Shown: piece by piece, positions 6,285 to 63,059 of the stretch
Position numbering within the stretch: position 1 is the stretch's first letter
Layout of the letters: every line of letters starts with the position of its first letter
Source: Nitrosomonas sp. Nm34
Lineage (GTDB): Bacteria; Pseudomonadota; Gammaproteobacteria; Burkholderiales; Nitrosomonadaceae
Length of the DNA: 64,000 nucleotides
Direction of reading: 5' to 3'
Assembly (NCBI RefSeq): GCF_900113925.1
Contig: NZ_FORD01000003.1
Coordinates: forward strand, 1-64,000
Position numbers and translations under genes: made by a program
The notes under the pieces: model-generated
Told to the model about the DNA's origin: nothing
Database searches by the model: none
Seen by the model: only the letters and a program-made list of their open reading frames with translations

Positions 6285-6420
6285 AATTTAATTCTATTTG
6301 CTCAGCATTTAGCATATATTAACATCTATACACTATTTACCTTGTATAACTCTTAGTTACTAATTTAATATCAATCAAATTAGTTATATTTACTAAGCGC
6401 CTACATCTATTGGCTGTTTA

Positions 6421-6436
6421 TTTTTTTAAAGAGCTG
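6421..6436 (-). promoter_or_regulatory. boxA-like site in the rRNA leader
   Basis: The minus strand reads CAGCTCTTTAAAAAAA in the leader between the promoter and the 16S gene, matching the boxA pattern of rRNA antitermination. A second site lies in the 16S-23S spacer. Confidence 0.55.
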
Positions 6437-6472
6437 GTTGCTTTTTTTTCGTCTCAAGCAACAGAGATGTGC

Positions 6473-6500
6473 ATTATACAGACCATATTTTCTCCGTCAA
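6473..6500 (-). promoter_or_regulatory. rRNA operon promoter (sigma-70 type)
   Basis: On the minus strand a TTGACG -35 box (6500-6495) and a perfect TATAAT -10 box (6478-6473) are separated by 16 nt. Transcription would start near 6466, about 180 nt upstream of the 16S gene. The fit to consensus is as expected for a strong rRNA promoter. AT-rich DNA upstream (6500-6600) could act as an UP element. Confidence 0.75.
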
Positions 6501-6800
6501 GCTTTTTAACATTTTTTTTAAAATAAATTTTCTCAATCAACGAATACAATAAACTCACATCGATTATTTGATTATTGTTTCAATAGTTTACAGGCATATT
6601 ACAAAATATTACCATCCTGTTATTCTCTATTGATTCAAGCGACATGTTTCAACTTTGCATGTTACTGCGCTTTTCCAGGATTAATTGGTTGCGCTATAAA
6701 GTAATGCTCACCACCTGACAATGAGTGACAGCAAATTACGATTTATTATTTGCCAGCCGCTACAAACACAAACAGGGCAACCCCTGAACCACTCTGATTG
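6501..6800. other. intergenic region between the rRNA promoter and the GH57 gene
   Basis: No gene is supported. The part next to the rRNA promoter is very AT-rich. The part near 6800 follows the 3' end of the minus-strand GH57 gene, but no clear terminator hairpin with a T-run was seen. Confidence 0.4.
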
Positions 6801-8825
6801 TTACTCAGAATACTCTTTTGCCTTCACTTCCAGAGTAATCCTTAATTCACGCTCAGTAACTGGCCAGATCAATTTTAATTTGACAGCCTGCATAATCTTT
6901 TCATAGCCTCCCTCCGATTGAGATACAGAAAAGTGAGGTTGCGCACAAAATCTGATTGGAGCAGAAGTACTCATTAGCAGCATACCCTGCAGAACCACAT
7001 CCTCCATAGCGATGTTAGTGATATCCGCCAAATCCATATATTGCCCAAAACCGCCCAACACCGTGGATTCATCTTTAACATAACGGCCACCTGGACCATC
7101 ACAACTGGGCATAGCTAAATTGATTTCGGTTTCCAGATGGCCCTCTACATTCCCCGACAAGTGATAGGAAACTAAAAGGCGGTTGCCAGAAAGCTCCAGT
7201 ACCTTAACGACTTCACCTTGATCGTTTTTGGACAAGAAACGGATACGAGACTCATCTTGTGATTCGAGATGATAAATTAATGACACTTTATTTAGGTTGT
7301 CAAAAAACAGGCTTTGCGGATGAGCGTCAACCTGTAAGTCAGAAAGAATAATTTGATTCTTAAAATTGATCCGATCATGCGCAGATGCAATACCCGTACC
7401 GCTATGTTTGGGTATTTCAAGTGCATTGGGTTGTATTTTGCAGTAGTAATGTTCTATTTGACGACGTAACGTGTCACCAAAATTATGCTTGAGCTGATAG
7501 GCATCAAATTCACATAGGCTCGCATTGCCATCAAGCTTAACTACAGCCTGGAGTACTTGATTATGTAAATAGGCTTCTTCCACACCGTCCAGATCGGTAT
7601 CCTCGATAAAAAAAGCAGGACGTGGTGCACACTCATCCAACAAACCTTCTAATTCGACAACATTATTGTATATAGCTCGTCGCAAATGCGGGAGATATAG
7701 ACCACCGAACAAGCCATGCCAATAAGCATCATTGGCTTGTGCAGCATACAATTTTTGTCGCATCGCATCAGAGCATTGCGTTACCGGCAGCGCAGCAAAA
7801 CGGGCAGAAAGGGATAGCATACGCTTGTGCATCCAGTTCGATTCAGGGTAACGAGAAAAAAAATTTTTCCAGATACCTCCGCGTAGAAAGGATTTATTAT
7901 GCTCATACCAGCCAGTTGCTTTTGCCTGGCGCACTAGATCAGCATAAGCATTAGCTGGTCCAGCAGGTAACGTCCATTCATTCATCTCAATGTAGGAGGT
8001 AGTCGGCAGATAAATTATTCCATGAGATTTTTCCAAAGCATGATAATCATGATAATGTCGAGGAAAAATTTTGGGAGAAGCCAGTACACCTTGAATAAAT
8101 TGCTCAAGCCAGCCCTTCTCATATACCCACTGATAGGTCTCAGGCCAAATGCCAAATTTCTCGATATCATCGAAATAAATAGCGGCAACACCCTTGTTTG
8201 TTGTTGAGTTTTCAGCTAGAGACTCAATATAGGCCACCGCTTCATGTGCTGGGGAAAAAGGTAACTTATAACGAAGCATTTCAGATATAGGGAAAAGATC
8301 CAAGGCGCGATCATCTTCCTCGGTGGTAAAGAAACCATTGAGTTCTGCTTTGGTTTTGCCCGCACACATAAAATGATAATCATCTACGATAACGTAGCGA
8401 ATCCCGCAATCTACCAACGCGGGCACCACGGTTGATTCCCATACCCGCTCAGTGAGCCAAGCACCCTGTGGACGCTGCCCGAATCTTTCCTCTAATTTCT
8501 TGGAAAAAGTTTCAATTTGTCCAATACGGTCCCGATTGGGAATAACCGCTAATACTGGTTCTGTTTCTCCCGCACCGAAAAGCTCTACTTGCCCCCGCAT
8601 GACCATCTCACGCAATAAAGCCATATCATTGGGGTAATGCTCAAATAAGAAATCAAGTAGCCATCCAGAAAAATGAAGAGCAAACTTAAAATCTGGATAA
8701 CGATATAAAACTTGTAAAAAAGGTCTATAACAACGCAAATGCGCATCGACTAAAACTTCTGCAAAGTTTCCAACCGGCTGATGCGCATGAACACCAAATA
8801 GTAAAGAGATAGATTGAGATGCCAC
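6801..8825 (-). CDS. GH57 4-alpha-glucanotransferase-like enzyme
   Basis: The 674-residue protein starts FGVHAHQPVGNF, the first GH57 signature, and carries the nucleophile motif WLTERVWES (E126) and the acid/base motif YFDDIEKFG (D219/D220). These match the 4-alpha-glucanotransferase/alpha-amylase branch of GH57. The beta-rich C-terminal half matches the DUF1925/DUF1926 region of those enzymes. It should transfer or hydrolyse alpha-1,4-glucan chains in the cytoplasm, as no signal peptide is seen. The start is GTG at 8825. It lies 113 bp downstream of a second GH57 gene on the same strand and near glgC and glgB, which supports a role in glycogen metabolism. Transferase rather than amylase activity is a family-level inference. 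Confidence 0.88.
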   Translation of the reverse strand: MASQSISLLFGVHAHQPVGNFAEVLVDAHLRCYRPFLQVLYRYPDFKFALHFSGWLLDFLFEHYPNDMALLREMVMRGQVELFGAGETEPVLAVIPNRDRIGQIETFSKKLEERFGQRPQGAWLTERVWESTVVPALVDCGIRYVIVDDYHFMCAGKTKAELNGFFTTEEDDRALDLFPISEMLRYKLPFSPAHEAVAYIESLAENSTTNKGVAAIYFDDIEKFGIWPETYQWVYEKGWLEQFIQGVLASPKIFPRHYHDYHALEKSHGIIYLPTTSYIEMNEWTLPAGPANAYADLVRQAKATGWYEHNKSFLRGGIWKNFFSRYPESNWMHKRMLSLSARFAALPVTQCSDAMRQKLYAAQANDAYWHGLFGGLYLPHLRRAIYNNVVELEGLLDECAPRPAFFIEDTDLDGVEEAYLHNQVLQAVVKLDGNASLCEFDAYQLKHNFGDTLRRQIEHYYCKIQPNALEIPKHSGTGIASAHDRINFKNQIILSDLQVDAHPQSLFFDNLNKVSLIYHLESQDESRIRFLSKNDQGEVVKVLELSGNRLLVSYHLSGNVEGHLETEINLAMPSCDGPGGRYVKDESTVLGGFGQYMDLADITNIAMEDVVLQGMLLMSTSAPIRFCAQPHFSVSQSEGGYEKIMQAVKLKLIWPVTERELRITLEVKAKEYSE

Positions 8826-17085: not shown

Positions 17086-18504
17086 ATGAATGTAGCAGAT
17101 AAAGCATCACACCAGGATATTCCCTCATTGATAAATATTGCAGTGGTAGGCCACACTAATACCGGTAAGACCTCGCTGATTCGCACCATGCTGCGAAGCA
17201 ATCAATTCGGTAAAATCGAAGATAGTGCAGGAACGACTCGCCATGTTGAACGGGCAACTATTTTTGCTGATAATGAAGCCATATTGAATTTACATGACAC
17301 CCCTGGTATTGAGGATTCTCATGCACTGTTAAGGCAACTTAAATCGATTGGCACGCATCATAAATCGTTTTCACCCATCGAAATATTAGAAAAATTCATT
17401 GCCACCACGTCTATCGATGATCCATTAGAACAAGAAGCCAAGGTCATCAGGCAAATATTGCGCAGCGATGTCCTATTGTACATCATCGATGTGCGCGAGC
17501 CTGTATTGGAAAAATATCTGATGGAAATCGAGGTGCTCAGCAAGGCTATGAAACCCATCATCCCGGTTTTCAATTTTATTGCCAACCACACAGCAGAGCT
17601 TGCCATCTGGCGAAAAAAACTGGCTGCTTTCAATCTTCATACCTCATTAGAATTCGATACAGTCGCCTTTTCTTTTGAGGCGGAGAAGCGGTTGTATCAA
17701 AAAATACAAACTCTGGTGGAATCACACTATGAGCAATTGCAGAAACTCATCAATTACCGCGCCACGGTATGGGACCAACTCTGCCTGTCTGCAGCCAGAC
17801 GCATCGTTGAGTTGATTGTATCGGTTGCCTGCTATCGTGAAAGCAAACGGAACCAGAGCGATAGTCATGCAAATTCAACCGCCGTCCAAAAATTAAAGGA
17901 TTTCGTGAGAAAATCCGAACAAAGCTGTTTAAGAGATTTGCTAACCATTTTTAATTTCTCAGAGAAAGACATTGCTCTCCAAAAAATTCCTGTCAGCAAT
18001 GGCCAATGGCAGCTTGATATATTTGCTCCCGGGGTTCTCAAGGCGTATGGTCTTGATATTGGCAGTGCTGCACTCAAAGGTGCAGCAACAGGCGCAGGAA
18101 TTGATCTGATGGTGGGTGGGCTAAGCTTAGGAGCAGCCACTGCCTTGGGTGCGATCGCTGGCACTGGCTGGTCAACATTTAAACGCTATGGCAAGGAGAT
18201 CAAAGCCAAAATTCAAGGCATGCAATGGTTGTGTGTGGATGAAAGCACGCTGCAGATACTCTACCTCCGTCAGCAGCAATTGTTGTCAAAACTGATGCAT
18301 CGTGGTCATGCTGCGTACCAGGCAGACCAGATTGATACGACCACTGTATCTGCTTCAGAAAAATTACCCAGTAACTGGCCCGATATAATCAATACCCTGC
18401 AACAGAATCCGATATGGTGTAAACCTTCTACCGCTCGAAATCAAGATCCACAATATCAAAATATTGAAGCCAAACTGATCAATGCATTGCTAGCTAACGG
18501 CTAA
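17086..18504 (+). CDS. DUF3482 GTPase-domain protein
   Basis: The N-terminus has a G1 P-loop (GHTNTGKTSLIRTML), a threonine-containing G2 region (GTTRHVE) and a G3 motif (LHDTPGIED), so it is a TrmE-Era-like P-loop GTPase. A classical NKxD G4 is not obvious. The C-terminal half is DUF3482, with a glycine/alanine-rich hydrophobic stretch (about residues 320-355) that could contact membrane. I choose the ATG at 17086, just after the stop of the DUF2868 gene; an upstream in-frame ATG at 17065 overlaps that gene. The pair is presumed to act together at the inner membrane, but its role is unknown. Confidence 0.85.
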   Translation: MNVADKASHQDIPSLINIAVVGHTNTGKTSLIRTMLRSNQFGKIEDSAGTTRHVERATIFADNEAILNLHDTPGIEDSHALLRQLKSIGTHHKSFSPIEILEKFIATTSIDDPLEQEAKVIRQILRSDVLLYIIDVREPVLEKYLMEIEVLSKAMKPIIPVFNFIANHTAELAIWRKKLAAFNLHTSLEFDTVAFSFEAEKRLYQKIQTLVESHYEQLQKLINYRATVWDQLCLSAARRIVELIVSVACYRESKRNQSDSHANSTAVQKLKDFVRKSEQSCLRDLLTIFNFSEKDIALQKIPVSNGQWQLDIFAPGVLKAYGLDIGSAALKGAATGAGIDLMVGGLSLGAATALGAIAGTGWSTFKRYGKEIKAKIQGMQWLCVDESTLQILYLRQQQLLSKLMHRGHAAYQADQIDTTTVSASEKLPSNWPDIINTLQQNPIWCKPSTARNQDPQYQNIEAKLINALLANG

Positions 18505-49431: not shown

Positions 49432-49971
49432 TCATGTTTCTTCGAACTCGTCAAGAATTTGCTCGTATAACTGCCGATCAGCATCACTGAACAAAACAAA
49501 GCGGATATGCTTAACCATCAAAAGCCTGGGAAGCATATTGAAAATTGTCTGAAAGGCGATCCTGGTAGCTAATTCCAAGGGAAAGCCAAAAAAGCCCGTC
49601 GAGATTGCCGGAAAAGCAATAGATCGGATGCGATTATTCTCGGCCAATTGCAGCGCATTATGATAACAAGAGGATAACAACTCATCAGAAGGCTCATCTT
49701 TACCGTAGACTGGCCCAAGACAATGAATAACATAACGGTTTGGTAGATTATGTGCTCCGGTTATGACCGCCTGACCAGGCAGAATAGGTGCGAACTTGCG
49801 GCATTCCTCTTCGAGGCCGGGGCCTGCTCCCCGATGAATCGCGCCTGCCACCCCTCCTCCCATTTGCAACATGGCGTTAGCCGCGTTAACAATGGCATCC
49901 ATATCAGCTTGAGCTGCAATATTCCCCTGAACACACTCAACCGTTACGCCGAAGAATTCACGCTTAATCAT
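49432..49971 (-). CDS. macro-domain protein (YmdB-like)
   Basis: A single macro domain of 179 residues: VECVQGNIAAQADMDAIVNA, AANAMLQMGGGVAGAIHRGA and the ligand loop FPAISTGFFGFP. Members bind ADP-ribose and remove O-acetyl or phosphate groups from its derivatives. GGGAG precedes the ATG. It is divergent from the kinase-RNase Z fusion gene, which is of interest because ADP-ribose-1''-phosphate is a by-product of some tRNA splicing routes. Confidence 0.93.
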   Translation of the reverse strand: MIKREFFGVTVECVQGNIAAQADMDAIVNAANAMLQMGGGVAGAIHRGAGPGLEEECRKFAPILPGQAVITGAHNLPNRYVIHCLGPVYGKDEPSDELLSSCYHNALQLAENNRIRSIAFPAISTGFFGFPLELATRIAFQTIFNMLPRLLMVKHIRFVLFSDADRQLYEQILDEFEET

Positions 49972-50137: not shown

Positions 50138-50415
50138 ACACTTCAATGACTAGCTGTTGCAGTTTACTCTTTGTCCACCTGCTGAGTCGTGTCAGCCAAA
50201 CGGTTTAGCAGAAAGTCCAGGACGAGAACTTTGAGAGCAAATAATACCCACCCAGCTTCAGCAGATTGGCAGCGATGCCATTTTATGTTTAACAAAATCC
50301 AGCTTAGCTTTTTCTACCTATAGAAATGATTGGAAACTGCCTCAGTTAAAAAACTTTTGTGATCAAATTAAGACCAAAAGTCATCCAGCTTTTTGCACGT
50401 AAGGAGGGAGAATGC
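50138..50415. other. upstream region of the kinase-RNase Z fusion gene
   Basis: No gene is seen. The right edge has AAGGAGGG (50401-50408), an excellent ribosome-binding site that fixes the start of the next gene at 50416. Confidence 0.5.
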
Positions 50416-52401
50416 ATGTTTAGCAATAATAGACACTACTTGCCTGTTTTAGCGTATCGACCGGCTGAAATCGCTACCACCGTATTAACACACCACCGGC
50501 GCATATTGTTGCATGGCCCACCTGGAGTCGGCAAATCGACGCTGGCTGCTCAGTTGGCACACGAACTCAACAAGGCTGGCCAAAGCTGTTATGGTATCTG
50601 TGCTGATCCCGGTTCACCTGCCTTTGGTTTTCCAGGCGCTGTTTCTCTCGCTAGATGGCAATCGGATGATTGGCAGGTGTACAGTTATGAAGCTATCTGC
50701 AGCCTCAATGCCGGTCGTTTCCGTCTGCCATTGGTTTTAGCGATACAACATCTTATCCCATCGTCTGATAACAACATACTGTTAATTGATGCCCCTGGCG
50801 TCACCCGTGGCGTTGCTGGCAGCGAATTGCTGCAAGGTTTGTTTGAAGTAGCAGCTGTTGATGCTGTGCTCATGCTTACTGCGGCTGGTCGACCTCCAGC
50901 GCTACTCGATGAACTGCGTAGCTTGACGAGTCATATCTTCATAGTCCCAGCCAGGGTGGAAGCCAGGCAACCCGGAAAACGTAGTCGCGCTCACCAGCGT
51001 ACAAAACTATGGAATGACTACCTTAAGCAGGGTATTGAACAAACGGTCGATCTGACGCAAGTAAATATTATCGGCACACCACCTCCTTTAGGTGAAGTCA
51101 GTGCCTGGGCTGGAAGGCAGGTCGCATTATTGAATCGCAATCAGACACAGGTCATGGCCGAAGTGAAGCATTTGCACGGAAAACGGCTAACTGTCAGGTT
51201 GCCATACCTACCCCATGCTTTCGACAGTTTAGTGATCCGAGATACGCAGCGTTCGCTCAGCGGTCTAGTGGAAACAGCGGTACCGTTTGCGGCAGAACCG
51301 CTCACCTACCTGCCGGCCTCCAATACGAGCGACCCTCTCCTGCAACATAGTGGGATGCAAGTGATGGGGCGAGTCGGGCAAATCGATTTCTGTCTGGTCA
51401 ACGGGATTCTTGGCGACCCACTATTGCACGTACGCTTGCGGCAGCAAAGGCGGAGCCTGTTGTTCGATTTGGGAGAAGGGGTGCGTCTGCCGGCACGCAT
51501 TGCTCATCAGGTAACGGATGTTTTCATCAGCCATACTCATATCGACCATATTGGTGGCTTCATAATGTTACTGCGTTCACGCATTGGAGAGTTTCCACCA
51601 TGCCGTCTGTATGGGCCGCCAGGATTGGCTCAACACATCAAAGGTTTTCTGCAAGGTATTCTATGGGATCGGATCGGTGAGCGCGCACCTCGCTTTGAGG
51701 TAGCAGAAGTACATATCGACCGTTTATTGCGCTTTCGCCTCCAAGCTGGCCAGCAAGCATGTGTACCGTTAGCCGAGATCAAGTTGGAAGCAGGCGTGAT
51801 CCTGCAAGAGACGGGTTTTTGCATTCGAGCACAATTGCTAGATCACCACACACCAGTGCTGGCCTACGCCTTCGAACCGACGAAAGAAACCAATATCCGC
51901 AAAGATTATCTGCAAACACATAACCTGAAGCCAGGGCCTTGGTTGGCCCAGGTAAAAAAACACCTGTTGGCCGGAAATGACGAAGCAATCATTACTCTAC
52001 CTGACGGCACGATGACCAGCGTGGCGGTTATCGCAACTAACCTGGTCCTGATCAAGCCAGGCAAGAAATTAGTTTATGCGACCGATTTTGCGGATACCGC
52101 AGATAATCGCCTGCGGCTACAGGCTTTAGCTCGATACGCCCATACCTTTTTCTGCGAAGCTTGCTTTATGGAAACAGATACCAGCCAAGCTACGCAGACT
52201 GGTCATTTAACTACACGCGCTTGTGGCGAAATCGCAACAGCTGCTGAAGTTGCCAGACTAGTGCCCTTCCACTTTTCCCAGCGCTATGCTGACCAGCTAC
52301 AGCAGGTTTATGATGAGATACATGCTGTCTGCTCATGTGTTGTTATGCCGCCTGTTTTGCAACCTGTTGGGCGTACTAACAAGCAGGATGAACTATCCTA
52401 G
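50416..52401 (+). CDS. Clp1-like kinase domain fused to RNase Z-like nuclease
   Basis: The 661-residue protein (ATG 50416, AGGAGGG 7 nt upstream) has two parts. Residues about 20-230 form a P-loop domain with Walker A GPPGVGKSTLA and LLIDAPGVTRGVAGSELLQG, resembling Clp1/Grc3-type polynucleotide 5'-hydroxyl kinases. From about 300 to the end it is an RNase Z-like metallo-beta-lactamase domain: HTHIDHIGG (metal site), DHHTPVLAYAFE, YATDFADT and PFHFSQRYADQ, the last being close to the HFSQRY signature of tRNase Z. Most metal ligands are present, so nuclease activity is plausible. A protein that could both cut and phosphorylate RNA suggests RNA end-processing or repair. The fusion is seen; the function is inference. 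Confidence 0.85.
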   Translation: MFSNNRHYLPVLAYRPAEIATTVLTHHRRILLHGPPGVGKSTLAAQLAHELNKAGQSCYGICADPGSPAFGFPGAVSLARWQSDDWQVYSYEAICSLNAGRFRLPLVLAIQHLIPSSDNNILLIDAPGVTRGVAGSELLQGLFEVAAVDAVLMLTAAGRPPALLDELRSLTSHIFIVPARVEARQPGKRSRAHQRTKLWNDYLKQGIEQTVDLTQVNIIGTPPPLGEVSAWAGRQVALLNRNQTQVMAEVKHLHGKRLTVRLPYLPHAFDSLVIRDTQRSLSGLVETAVPFAAEPLTYLPASNTSDPLLQHSGMQVMGRVGQIDFCLVNGILGDPLLHVRLRQQRRSLLFDLGEGVRLPARIAHQVTDVFISHTHIDHIGGFIMLLRSRIGEFPPCRLYGPPGLAQHIKGFLQGILWDRIGERAPRFEVAEVHIDRLLRFRLQAGQQACVPLAEIKLEAGVILQETGFCIRAQLLDHHTPVLAYAFEPTKETNIRKDYLQTHNLKPGPWLAQVKKHLLAGNDEAIITLPDGTMTSVAVIATNLVLIKPGKKLVYATDFADTADNRLRLQALARYAHTFFCEACFMETDTSQATQTGHLTTRACGEIATAAEVARLVPFHFSQRYADQLQQVYDEIHAVCSCVVMPPVLQPVGRTNKQDELS

Positions 52402-56139: not shown

Positions 56140-56955
56140 TTATTGACGCACATAGATCGGTAAGCGTGGCTGCCACTGGCGCCATCCGCTTACCCCTTCA
56201 GGCAAGCGCTCATGCGCACCTAATACTAATACACCCCCTTCTAATAGTCGTGTTTGTAATTTATGTAGAAATTGCATTTGTCTCTCCAAGCTAAAATAGG
56301 TAAACACTAGGTTGCGGCATAGCACCAAATGATAAGATTGCATATCTATATCTTGCTCTACATCGCTTACCGAGAAAGTGACTAGATGCTGATAAATAGG
56401 AGAAAGACAATATCGATCATTGATTTGTCTGAACGCTTTTTGACGCCATTCAGGTGCTAAACTCTTCACACTACTAAATGGATAGCACGCTTTGCACGCC
56501 TGTTGAATCATGAGTGGCTCAATATCTGTTGCAGTAATCGAAATGACCACTTCTGGATAGCGATCTTGCAAAACAAAAGTCCAGAGTAACACTAGGCTAT
56601 AAGCCTCTTCACCTCTGGCGCAACCTGCACACCAGCAATAGAAGTATTTTTCACCTCGTAGTTGCAGCTGAGCACATAATCGGGGTATTAATTCACTTTC
56701 AAGTCGGTTAAAAACGACTTTATCGCGGTAAAAACGCGAGATAGTAACATGACACAAGCTGGTCAGGATTTGCCATTCAGAGACATGGTTAAGCAAATAA
56801 TCACGATAAGCCAATTCATCCACAAGACCTAACTGGTTAATACGCTGACCTATACGTTTACATACTTGTTTTCTAACCCGACGAAAACCTGGCCAACGCA
56901 GCTGCATTTGCGGCAGGGCCCACTGCAAGAAATGAATACAGGTTTCATCTTTCAT
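56140..56955 (-). CDS. CheR-like protein methyltransferase
   Basis: The 271-residue protein has the CheR layout: an N-terminal helical domain (about 1-75) and a SAM-dependent methyltransferase domain with ISRFYRDKVVF (CheR: TxFFRD), WCAGCARGEEAYSLVL (motif I) and VLCRNLVFTYFS. CheR enzymes methylate glutamates of chemoreceptors. No cheB, receptor or other chemotaxis gene is in the window, so it may be an orphan or act on another target. No good ribosome-binding site precedes the ATG. Confidence 0.88.
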   Translation of the reverse strand: MKDETCIHFLQWALPQMQLRWPGFRRVRKQVCKRIGQRINQLGLVDELAYRDYLLNHVSEWQILTSLCHVTISRFYRDKVVFNRLESELIPRLCAQLQLRGEKYFYCWCAGCARGEEAYSLVLLWTFVLQDRYPEVVISITATDIEPLMIQQACKACYPFSSVKSLAPEWRQKAFRQINDRYCLSPIYQHLVTFSVSDVEQDIDMQSYHLVLCRNLVFTYFSLERQMQFLHKLQTRLLEGGVLVLGAHERLPEGVSGWRQWQPRLPIYVRQ

Positions 56956-61894: not shown

Positions 61895-62405
61895 TAATAC
61901 TTTGAGATTACAGTTCGTTTCTCTCGAGTAATCGGCCGATAACGTTGCTGCAATACATAAAAATTATCAGAATTTTTTTCAATTTGAGTTAGCCAAATTA
62001 CTTTCTGGATCATTCCTCAACATGTTTGACAACATATAGGATTCTGGGTACATTCCGGCTAGATTAAAAAAATATTTAAATTAACTTTCCTTCCAATGCA
62101 ATGATATTAAAAATAACGCGCTTCTCGAATGCATGCACTCGAAGCAGCATAGGAAGCTGCCGATCAGTGCTGTAATTACGGAAAGCGTCAGTCGATGTGG
62201 TGCAGTCTTGAGAGCCTTGGCGCATGAGTTATGGATTAAACATTTTTTGAATAGCTTACCTAAATCGTGCGTTTCCAAGGGAGTTACATTGATACTTATG
62301 TCCAGAAGAAAAATCGTATTACTATCGGCCACCGTTAAAAATCAATTATACGGGGCCAGACTCATCGTGCATTCATTTGATAGGTATCCCATATTACGCA
62401 CTGCT
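61895..62405. other. stretch upstream of the pentapeptide-repeat gene
   Basis: An open frame extends upstream from the next gene to 62133, but residues there show no pattern and lie before a clear signal peptide. It is probably non-coding. Confidence 0.4.
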
Positions 62406-63059
62406 ATGCACCCTGCTTTCCGATTGCTCGCTAATTGTTTTCGATACTCTCTCGTGCTAGCTTTGTTTATTTGCTTTGAAGCATTTGCCCAAGGAGCGCG
62501 CAATATAGAAGGGTGCAATATCCGGCGAGGCACGTTTTGTGTGGATATGAACCTGTATGGGAGCGATCTGCAAAATGAGAATCTGGCAAATTCCCAGTTC
62601 ACTCGGTCGATACTTTCCAAAGCGAATCTGACTGGAGCCAATCTGAATGAAGCGAACCTATCGAGTACTCAACTACACGAGGCCAACTTGAACCAGGCCT
62701 CACTGGTAAAAACGAATGCCCGGGGCGCACGTTTCAATGACGCCCAACTGGTAAAAGCGAATCTGCAAGGGGCCGTTCTACAAAATGCGGATCTCAGTGG
62801 CGCTAATTTAACAGGGGCCATGCTGACCAACGCAGATCTCACCAACGCGAAGCTTAGTAATGCCATACTCGATAATGCCGATATTCAGCGTGCTAATATG
62901 CGCGCAGCCCATTTGCGGGGAGCATCTCTGGTTAACGCTAATTTGCAGGGAGTAAATTTTACTGGTGCCGATCTGACTGACGCAGATCTGAGTGGAGCCA
63001 ATCTCGGGCAGACTATTTTTAACATGACACGTACGAGCGGATGCAAGAACTGCCCCTAA
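62406..63059 (+). CDS. exported pentapeptide-repeat protein
   Basis: From ATG 62406 the 217-residue protein has a signal peptide (MHPAFRLLANCFRYSLVLAL, cleavage after FAQ) and about 30 A(D/N)LxX repeats (ANLTGANLNEANL, ADLTDADLSGANL), which fold as a right-handed four-sided helix. Cysteines flank the repeats (GCNIRRGTFC; SGCKNC). It is probably periplasmic or surface-exposed. The function is unknown. A longer start at 62133 is open but would hide the signal peptide. Confidence 0.82.
   Translation: MHPAFRLLANCFRYSLVLALFICFEAFAQGARNIEGCNIRRGTFCVDMNLYGSDLQNENLANSQFTRSILSKANLTGANLNEANLSSTQLHEANLNQASLVKTNARGARFNDAQLVKANLQGAVLQNADLSGANLTGAMLTNADLTNAKLSNAILDNADIQRANMRAAHLRGASLVNANLQGVNFTGADLTDADLSGANLGQTIFNMTRTSGCKNCP

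Follow-up and report, generated by a model that had tools for sequence, protein, structure and literature searches.

A Divergent Clp1/Grc3-Type P-Loop Domain Fused to RNase Z in Nitrosomonas, and Its Association with RNA-Repair Genes

The window analyzed here is a 64,000-nucleotide stretch of DNA from Nitrosomonas sp. Nm34 (contig NZ_FORD01000003.1, positions 1 to 64,000). At 50416..52401 (+), it carries an open reading frame (ORF) for a 661-amino acid protein that, judged by its motifs and family matches, is a divergent Clp1/Grc3-type P-loop domain joined to a complete RNase Z with an arm. This fusion has been kept as one polypeptide across diverse Gammaproteobacteria and is associated with RNA-repair genes, statistically in a survey of genomes and physically in some of them. 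On balance, we regard the fusion as a probable two-headed RNA-end enzyme, devoted to the repair or quality control of damaged RNA and most likely of tRNA. Its genomic company underlies this reading: repair or clearance of broken RNA is proposed because the fusion gene tends to co-occur with RNA-repair genes.

The fusion ORF starts with ATG and is open to the stop at 52401; an in-frame GTG at 50359, upstream of the ATG at 50416, offers an alternative start that would yield 680 amino acids. The whole protein matched both CLP1_P (2.6e-12; 47.4 bits against a cut-off of 26.6) and Lactamase_B_2 (7.7e-13) in Pfam, and its top matches in the PDB were the ribonuclease Z chains 1y44 and 2cbn, which we take to be the Bacillus subtilis and Escherichia coli enzymes, respectively. 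The alignment used throughout has 18 members, namely the window protein itself and 17 two-domain homologues (46–84% identity). Three further fused copies (genomes G536, G623, and G848) came from a CLP1_P search of the phylum, and an assembly chimera is dismissed because these and the 17 homologues share the same architecture. The original prediction, made from the letters of the DNA, had proposed a Clp1-like kinase domain fused to an RNase Z-like nuclease and had suggested profile searches with models of both; both domains were matched, and the fusion is borne out by the CLP1_P, PRK02126, and 1y44/2cbn matches and by the homologues.

The RNase Z half, residues 318–649 (51367..52362, +), is of the PRK02126 type; it is the top RNase Z match of its genome and the only one over the arm region. 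It matched the NCBIfam ribonuclease Z subfamily PRK02126 at 1e-77 over residues 325–640, below the curated cut-offs, with 261.5 of 315 bits for PRK02126 and 111.4 of 292.95 bits for TIGR02651. The half aligns with 1y44 and 2cbn across the HxHxDH motif, the arm, and the later motifs, all of them on the forward strand. The metal-binding motif HTHIDHIGG (residues 373–381; 51532..51558) contributes H373, H375, D377, and H378. It is followed by LDHHTP (51838..51855), whose metal ligand H477 was aligned to 1y44; by ATDFAD (52078..52095), with metal ligand D557; by CEACF...GHLTT (52153..52215), with the catalytic residues E581 and H597, also aligned to 1y44 and presumably corresponding to the HEAT and HST motifs of RNase Z; and by HFSQRY (residues 619–624; 52270..52287), with metal ligand H619. 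All nine residues are unchanged in 18/18 sequences. HTHIDHIGG and HFSQRY had both been read from the C-terminal half at the outset, and loss of the nuclease metal ligands, which would have spoken against the proposal, was seen in none of the 18. The flexible-arm region PGPW...K...LPDG (51910..52008), the counterpart of the tRNA-binding arm of RNase Z, aligns to the GP arm of both 1y44 and 2cbn, with G507 in 18/18 and P508 in 17/18 sequences. Across the 23 genomes known to carry the fusion, it is the top RNase Z match in every one, and no other RNase Z match in these genomes spans the arm region: the others end by model position 162 or begin at position 199 at least.

The N-terminal half, residues 7–312 (50434..51351, +), is Clp1/Grc3-like and matched CLP1_P in 18/18 aligned sequences, with or without its P-loop. 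Because P-loops match many families, and many such families do match the first 50 residues of the fusion, residues 1–55 were removed and the searches repeated on the 18-sequence alignment. CLP1_P was then the sole Pfam family common to 18/18 sequences (best 4.1e-12) and the only one matched by the window protein (2.2e-7). The two top matches in the PDB were both Grc3, with whole-sequence E-values of 0.002 and 0.0028 and weak single segments; this alignment pairs DPGSPAF with the DPGQPEF of Grc3 and extends to the clasp region. A MinD-like or generic AAA identity of this half, the former named in the original prediction as a finding that would count against it, was rejected, as AAA-type matches sit at the P-loop and vanish after its removal, leaving CLP1_P and Grc3 as the best matches.

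Clp1 kinases carry four motifs, i.e., Walker A, a Walker B of the form [D/E]hhQ, a clasp [T/S/L]xGW, and a lid RxxxxR (PMC6777427, main text). The window protein has a Walker A, GPPGVGKS (residues 34–41; 50515..50538, +), and GxxxxGK[S/T] is satisfied in 18/18 sequences, with G34, G39, and K40 invariant and residue 41 either S or T. DPGSP (residues 64–68; 50605..50619, +) pairs with the DPGQP of Grc3 and contains the putative metal/catalytic Asp, present in 18/18, with the Gln replaced by S, N, M, or T. The clasp-like DAPGVTRG (residues 125–132; 50788..50811, +) keeps P127, G128, and G132 in 18/18, with V or L at the Trp position. Finally, a basic lid-like segment (residues 183–196; 50962..51003, +) contains R191 and R195, both invariant in 18/18 and spaced RxxxR, as opposed to RxxxxR in Clp1. 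From this tally, the N-terminal half appears to be a divergent Clp1/Grc3-family domain. The proposal of a Clp1-like kinase thus stands as to family, Walker A, and metal Asp but is less complete than first worded: the Walker B Gln and the clasp Trp are absent, and the lid Arg pair has a different spacing, in a motif where Ts-Clp1 deviates too. RNA kinase activity of this half is likely.

Three observations on the protein itself weigh against the proposed RNA-end enzyme. The Walker B Gln and the clasp Trp, at 0/18 each, are missing throughout the alignment. When the P-loop was kept, AAA ATPases (e.g., midasin, 1.2e-12) ranked above Grc3 (1.6e-6) in the PDB, which is the expected effect of a P-loop and is not evidence for a kinase on its own. 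An AlphaFold2 model built from few sequences, the window protein plus two near relatives, had a mean pLDDT of 30.6 and gave an uninformative fold. It is conceivable, if rather doubtful, that the N-terminal half is a Clp1-descended P-loop ATPase or GTPase that regulates or loads the RNase Z, or that phosphorylates some other substrate, leaving the nuclease alone to act on RNA. The two missing residues and the many P-loop families matched by the first 50 residues would fit such a protein, as would the former annotation of bacterial Clp1 proteins as GTPases (PMC6777427, main text). But Walker A, the metal Asp, and the two basic lid residues are invariant, and CLP1_P is the only general family match once the P-loop is gone. 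Along the same lines, Ts-Clp1, with an altered lid but a retained clasp, is still an active RNA kinase (PMC6777427, main text).

The distribution of the fusion is patchy. Within the genus, the whole protein was found in 7/85 genomes, and the remaining 78 have no intact copy; matches in Nitrosomonas sp. Nm33 and N. communis Nm44 have 84 and 89% identity, respectively. No match to the fusion protein at E 0.001, a threshold that a strongly diverged RNase Z could escape, was found in 76/85 genus genomes. Genome G114 has a short P-loop match only, and G103 (locus L070) has two short remnants of the fusion gene (1462–1611 and 17700–17876), separated by about 16 kb that holds other genes, including a 2,992-codon ORF. 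The remnants are flanked by a macro-like ORF (by sequence) and a CBS/M50 gene, and a CBS/M50 gene also flanks the fusion region of the window. They are the trace of a loss event in a relative.

In a sample of the class, a strong match to the N-terminal half (E 7e-38 or better) was found in 14/369 genomes from 13 families, including the genome of the window, and all 14 are fused. Among the weaker matches examined, G456 (L037) encodes a distant relative of the kinase half, with no RNase Z match in its locus, and G287 (L036) has a copy that is cut or broken, close to the end of its contig. In the CLP1_P search of the phylum, 7/398 genomes scored above the cut-off: the genome of the window and G536, G623, and G848 have fused copies; the copy in G565 (L109) runs off its contig; and G622 and G665 have marginal matches whose kinship to the fusion is not established, the G622 locus lacking a match to the A2 profile. 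In a tree of 31 RNase Z domains, the 20 fused ones all fall on one side of a branch of modest support (92/69; 94% of bootstrap trees); a single origin of the fusion thus fits.

A mobile origin was considered and rejected, as a search of 50,697 phage records and 72,556 plasmid records found none that spans 80% of the protein. Matches were obtained to 29 plasmid records and one phage record; among the matches listed (15 plasmid rows and the phage row), all are to the RNase Z half only, and the kinase half has no relative on viral contigs. Separately, a Limimaricola plasmid (L233, 277–1530) has an RNase Z-like stretch inside a gene whose annotation reads GXWXG-domain protein; this may be a further RNase Z fusion.

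The statistical tie to RNA repair concerns RtcA, the gene for the RNA 3'-phosphate cyclase. In the class sample, RtcA was found in 38/369 genomes, that is, in 8/14 fusion genomes as compared to 30/355 others (Fisher p 1.2e-5); with the genome of the window left out, it is in 7/13 fusion genomes (Fisher p 6.6e-5). Taking all fusion genomes together, RtcA is present in 14/23. The two genes are also closer than expected: in class-sample genomes with both, they lie within 22 kb in 3/8, which random placement in a genome of 3.3 Mb would give with a probability of about 1e-4. The tightest arrangement is in G169 (L058), where RtcA (4.6e-76) is 34 bp upstream of the fusion on the same strand. RtcA is on the contig of the fusion, 10–23 kb away, in G000, G101, G050, G121, and G176, and about 17 kb away in G102. 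G006, the only fusion-free genome of the genus searched for RtcA, had none. At the L058 locus, a gene for a PtsI/PEP-synthase-like C-terminal protein (6403–7674) overlaps the RtcA start, upstream of the fusion.

Several features of the genomic record count against a role in RNA repair. The Fisher tests ignore phylogeny, and partial matches make up four of the 38 for RtcA. No RtcA was found in 9/23 fusion genomes, some of which are incomplete drafts. In the genome of the window, no repair gene shares an operon with the fusion, and RtcA is 21 kb off; the fusion is a lone gene there, flanked by a macro-domain gene and a carboxypeptidase gene. RtcB was seen on the contig of the fusion in G176 only, among the stretches fetched, with no genome-wide search for RtcB or other ligases. 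No single neighbor is common to all fusion loci, and the link within the genus between the fusion and a CheR-like gene (described below) may reflect common descent.

A first question for the proposed role is which RNA ends the two halves would act upon. When RNase Z cuts, the tRNA ends in a 3'-OH and the trailer begins with a 5'-phosphate; therefore, a kinase has no work on the end made by this cut. The original idea that the protein cuts RNA and then phosphorylates the new 5' end is thus doubtful as worded, although the domain identities behind it hold. Should the N-terminal half be a kinase, it would more likely act on 5'-OH ends that another nuclease has made, the matching 3' RNA fragments beginning with a 5'-OH.

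A repair reaction can be rationalized as follows. The RNase Z half would dock on the acceptor/T arm, either in a tRNA or in its 3' half, and trim the damaged 3' end to a 3'-OH that a CCA-adding enzyme could rebuild. The RNase Z arm may supply the RNA binding that Clp1 draws from its clasp. The P-loop half would use ATP to phosphorylate the 5'-OH ends that ribotoxins or stress nucleases leave behind. As RtcB cannot seal a 5'-phosphate, the fusion would divert broken RNA from direct RtcB sealing, and the diverted RNA would enter decay or a 5'-P/3'-OH ligation route, a branch beside RtcB. The substrate, the kinase activity, and the order of these steps are what we infer. The scheme has parallels in known systems: RtcBA responds to broken tRNAs (PMC7790460, partial text); RtcA forms 2',3'-cyclic ends and adenylylates 5'-phosphate ends as well (PMC8131947, partial text); and 5' phosphorylation by animal Clp1 removes the 5'-OH substrate of RTCB, making Clp1 apparently a negative regulator (PMC13247085, partial text).

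Alternatively, the protein could be a housekeeping RNase Z that processes the 3' ends of tRNAs and carries an accessory ATPase domain, and two facts agree with this: the fusion is the best and only arm-covering RNase Z match in 23/23 fusion genomes, and every catalytic residue is retained. The tRNA genes argue otherwise. The genome of the window has 41 tRNAs, and CCA is encoded in 34/34 distinct tRNAs identified by ARAGORN in the surroundings of 30 of the 41. In E. coli, where tRNAs encode CCA, RNase Z is not needed; since all examined tRNAs encode it here, routine tRNA 3' maturation is unlikely as the role of the fusion. Moreover, the 76 genus genomes without a match, with the caveat on diverged enzymes given above, imply that the RNase Z of the fusion is dispensable in the genus, as do the mere remnants in G103. 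A housekeeping role also leaves the RtcA association unexplained, and we consider it improbable.

Pairing of a kinase with a nuclease is the principle of Las1–Grc3, and Grc3 is the best solved match to the fusion outside the P-loop. By analogy, the kinase could phosphorylate a 5'-OH end from which the metallo-beta-lactamase half then degrades or cuts, in rRNA or mRNA turnover; fusions of Las1 to a metallo-beta-lactamase do occur in Ascomycota (PMC3710099, partial text). The eukaryotic Grc3/Nol9 and Las1 likewise bring together a Clp1-type kinase and an RNase, but Las1 is a HEPN nuclease on a separate chain (PMC3710099, partial text), whereas here an RNase Z sits in the kinase's own chain. The C-terminal half is an RNase Z with an arm and HEAT/HST-type residues, as opposed to an RNase J-type exonuclease, and no rRNA-processing gene is among the identified neighbors. 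There is, in our view, only a slim chance that the fusion works in this manner. An anti-phage defense gene is the least probable alternative of all: the patchy distribution would suit it, and RNA repair often counters ribotoxins, but PADLOC gave only weak P-loop matches to the fusion (best 1.5e-5, residues 18–53) and none to seven neighbor or partner proteins, and the phage, plasmid, and viral-contig searches described above failed to place the whole protein or its kinase half on such elements.

Returning to a role in RNA repair, the genes around the fusion and around RtcA point to possible partners. In G308 (L060), the fusion belongs to a set of five co-directional genes, THUMP–Prim-Pol–MJ1316–fusion–CheR-like methyltransferase, with a largest gap of 139 bases. 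The MJ1316 label denotes an 'RNA cyclic group end recognition' domain. The THUMP match of the G308 copy, at 19.1 bits, is under the Pfam cut-off, and that of its G176 homologue, at 27.6 bits, is over it. Related combinations recur around RtcA elsewhere. All seven genus genomes with the fusion have an RtcA–MJ1316 pair, G217 has Prim-Pol–RtcA–MJ1316, and G176 has THUMP–RtcA–archease–RtcB; RtcA and CheR are adjacent in G461 and G330, and in G143 a CheR gene is divergent from RtcB–archease–THUMP. In three genomes, Prim-Pol-type genes lie by RtcA or close to the fusion (L060, 6545–7330; L189, 8686–9474; L196, 1938–2810), and their position suggests a polymerase in RNA repair.

A candidate partner in the window is a small stand-alone CheR-like methyltransferase of 271 amino acids (56140..56955, −; CheR 1.2e-32). 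Its orthologs (E <1e-100) are in 6/7 fusion genomes of the genus and in 0/78 others. The CheR-like gene adjoins the fusion in L052 and L056, where the two are convergent, and in L060, on the same strand; in a first clustering of neighbors, it was the most widespread, at 6/21 loci, five of them in the genus. In the class sample, with a threshold of E <1e-70 set at the gap seen, the CheR-like gene was found in 14 genomes; an RtcA match is present in 11/14 (p 9e-10) and the fusion in 4/14 (p 0.001), or in 3/13 (p 0.008) without the genome of the window. The macro-domain gene mentioned above encodes an ADP-ribosyl hydrolase-like protein (49432..49971, −; Macro 5.3e-42) and is divergent from the fusion. 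It has an equal position in G101 and G121 and is 4.4 kb from the fusion in G050. Macro proteins can act on ADP-ribosylated RNA ends, and this one might conceivably be a partner of the fusion, for which these few positions are a faint hint.

Three further observations concern genes whose connection to the fusion is indirect. A family of proteins of about 90–107 amino acids with no confident Pfam match adjoins RtcA or the CheR-like gene (L187, 9310–9633; L189, 10497–10796; L179, 11432–11698). Phosphoribosyltransferase-type genes have similar positions (L170, 10759–11358; L186, 8221–8862; L191, 1845–2447). The window also encodes a pentapeptide-repeat protein (62133–63059, +; 4.1e-51).

Taken further, these neighborhoods allow a more tentative proposal, in which the fusion might be the core of a modular tRNA-end repair system of Gammaproteobacteria. 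The RNase Z would clip the damaged 3' end, the Clp1-like half would phosphorylate 5'-OH ends, MJ1316 and THUMP proteins would recognize broken RNA, RtcA would cyclize or adenylylate ends, Prim-Pol would rebuild RNA, and the CheR-like protein would mark or protect ends, the kinase half switching RNA between RtcB sealing and a second route. A system of such breadth is possible, although we would not yet call it probable.

The fusion has in common with bacterial and archaeal Clp1 (Ts-Clp1 and Ph-Clp1; PF16575) the CLP1_P domain, Walker A, and the metal Asp; unlike them, it is fused to RNase Z and lacks the clasp Trp and the Walker B Gln. Clp1 kinases are rare in bacteria, being found in 14 of 1,543 species, and the words RNase Z, lactamase, fused, and Nitrosomonas are all absent from the main text, supplements aside, of the paper reporting them (PMC6777427); bacterial Clp1 has been called 'essentially simple' in domain structure (PMC10598085, partial text). 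Stand-alone bacterial RNase Z of the PRK02126 subfamily has the same catalytic and arm regions, but the examples aligned are about 340 amino acids long with no kinase half, and the fused copies group together, the window protein scoring below the PRK02126 cut-off. Human ELAC1 is a short RNase Z that serves tRNA repair, not maturation; it has no kinase domain and belongs to eukaryotic ribosome quality control. Yeast Trz1 and human ELAC2 are tRNase Z enzymes with a proposed nucleotide-binding motif, a putative P-loop (PMC1156898, partial text); this is an uncertain pattern within a metallo-beta-lactamase protein, as compared to a fused kinase domain here. The fusion shares genomes, and some neighborhoods, with RtcA, archease, RtcB, and MJ1316. 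The rtcBA operons described consist of the ligase and the cyclase, sometimes with Ro60 and Y RNA (PMC7790460, partial text), and no Clp1–RNase Z member was found in the literature searched. Titles and the beginnings of abstracts revealed no paper on a Clp1–RNase Z fusion, though the architecture may be listed in domain databases such as InterPro and UniProt.

A conserved Clp1–RNase Z fusion tied to RtcA and other repair genes gives bacterial Clp1 a specific candidate role, the handling of broken-RNA ends. If this role is true, bacteria would have a kinase competing with RtcB, the part that Clp1 apparently plays in animals. The fusion also suggests that, where the tRNA genes already encode CCA, an RNase Z can serve in repair. 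Bacterial RNA repair gains additional candidate components in the CheR-like, THUMP, and Prim-Pol genes found near RtcA.

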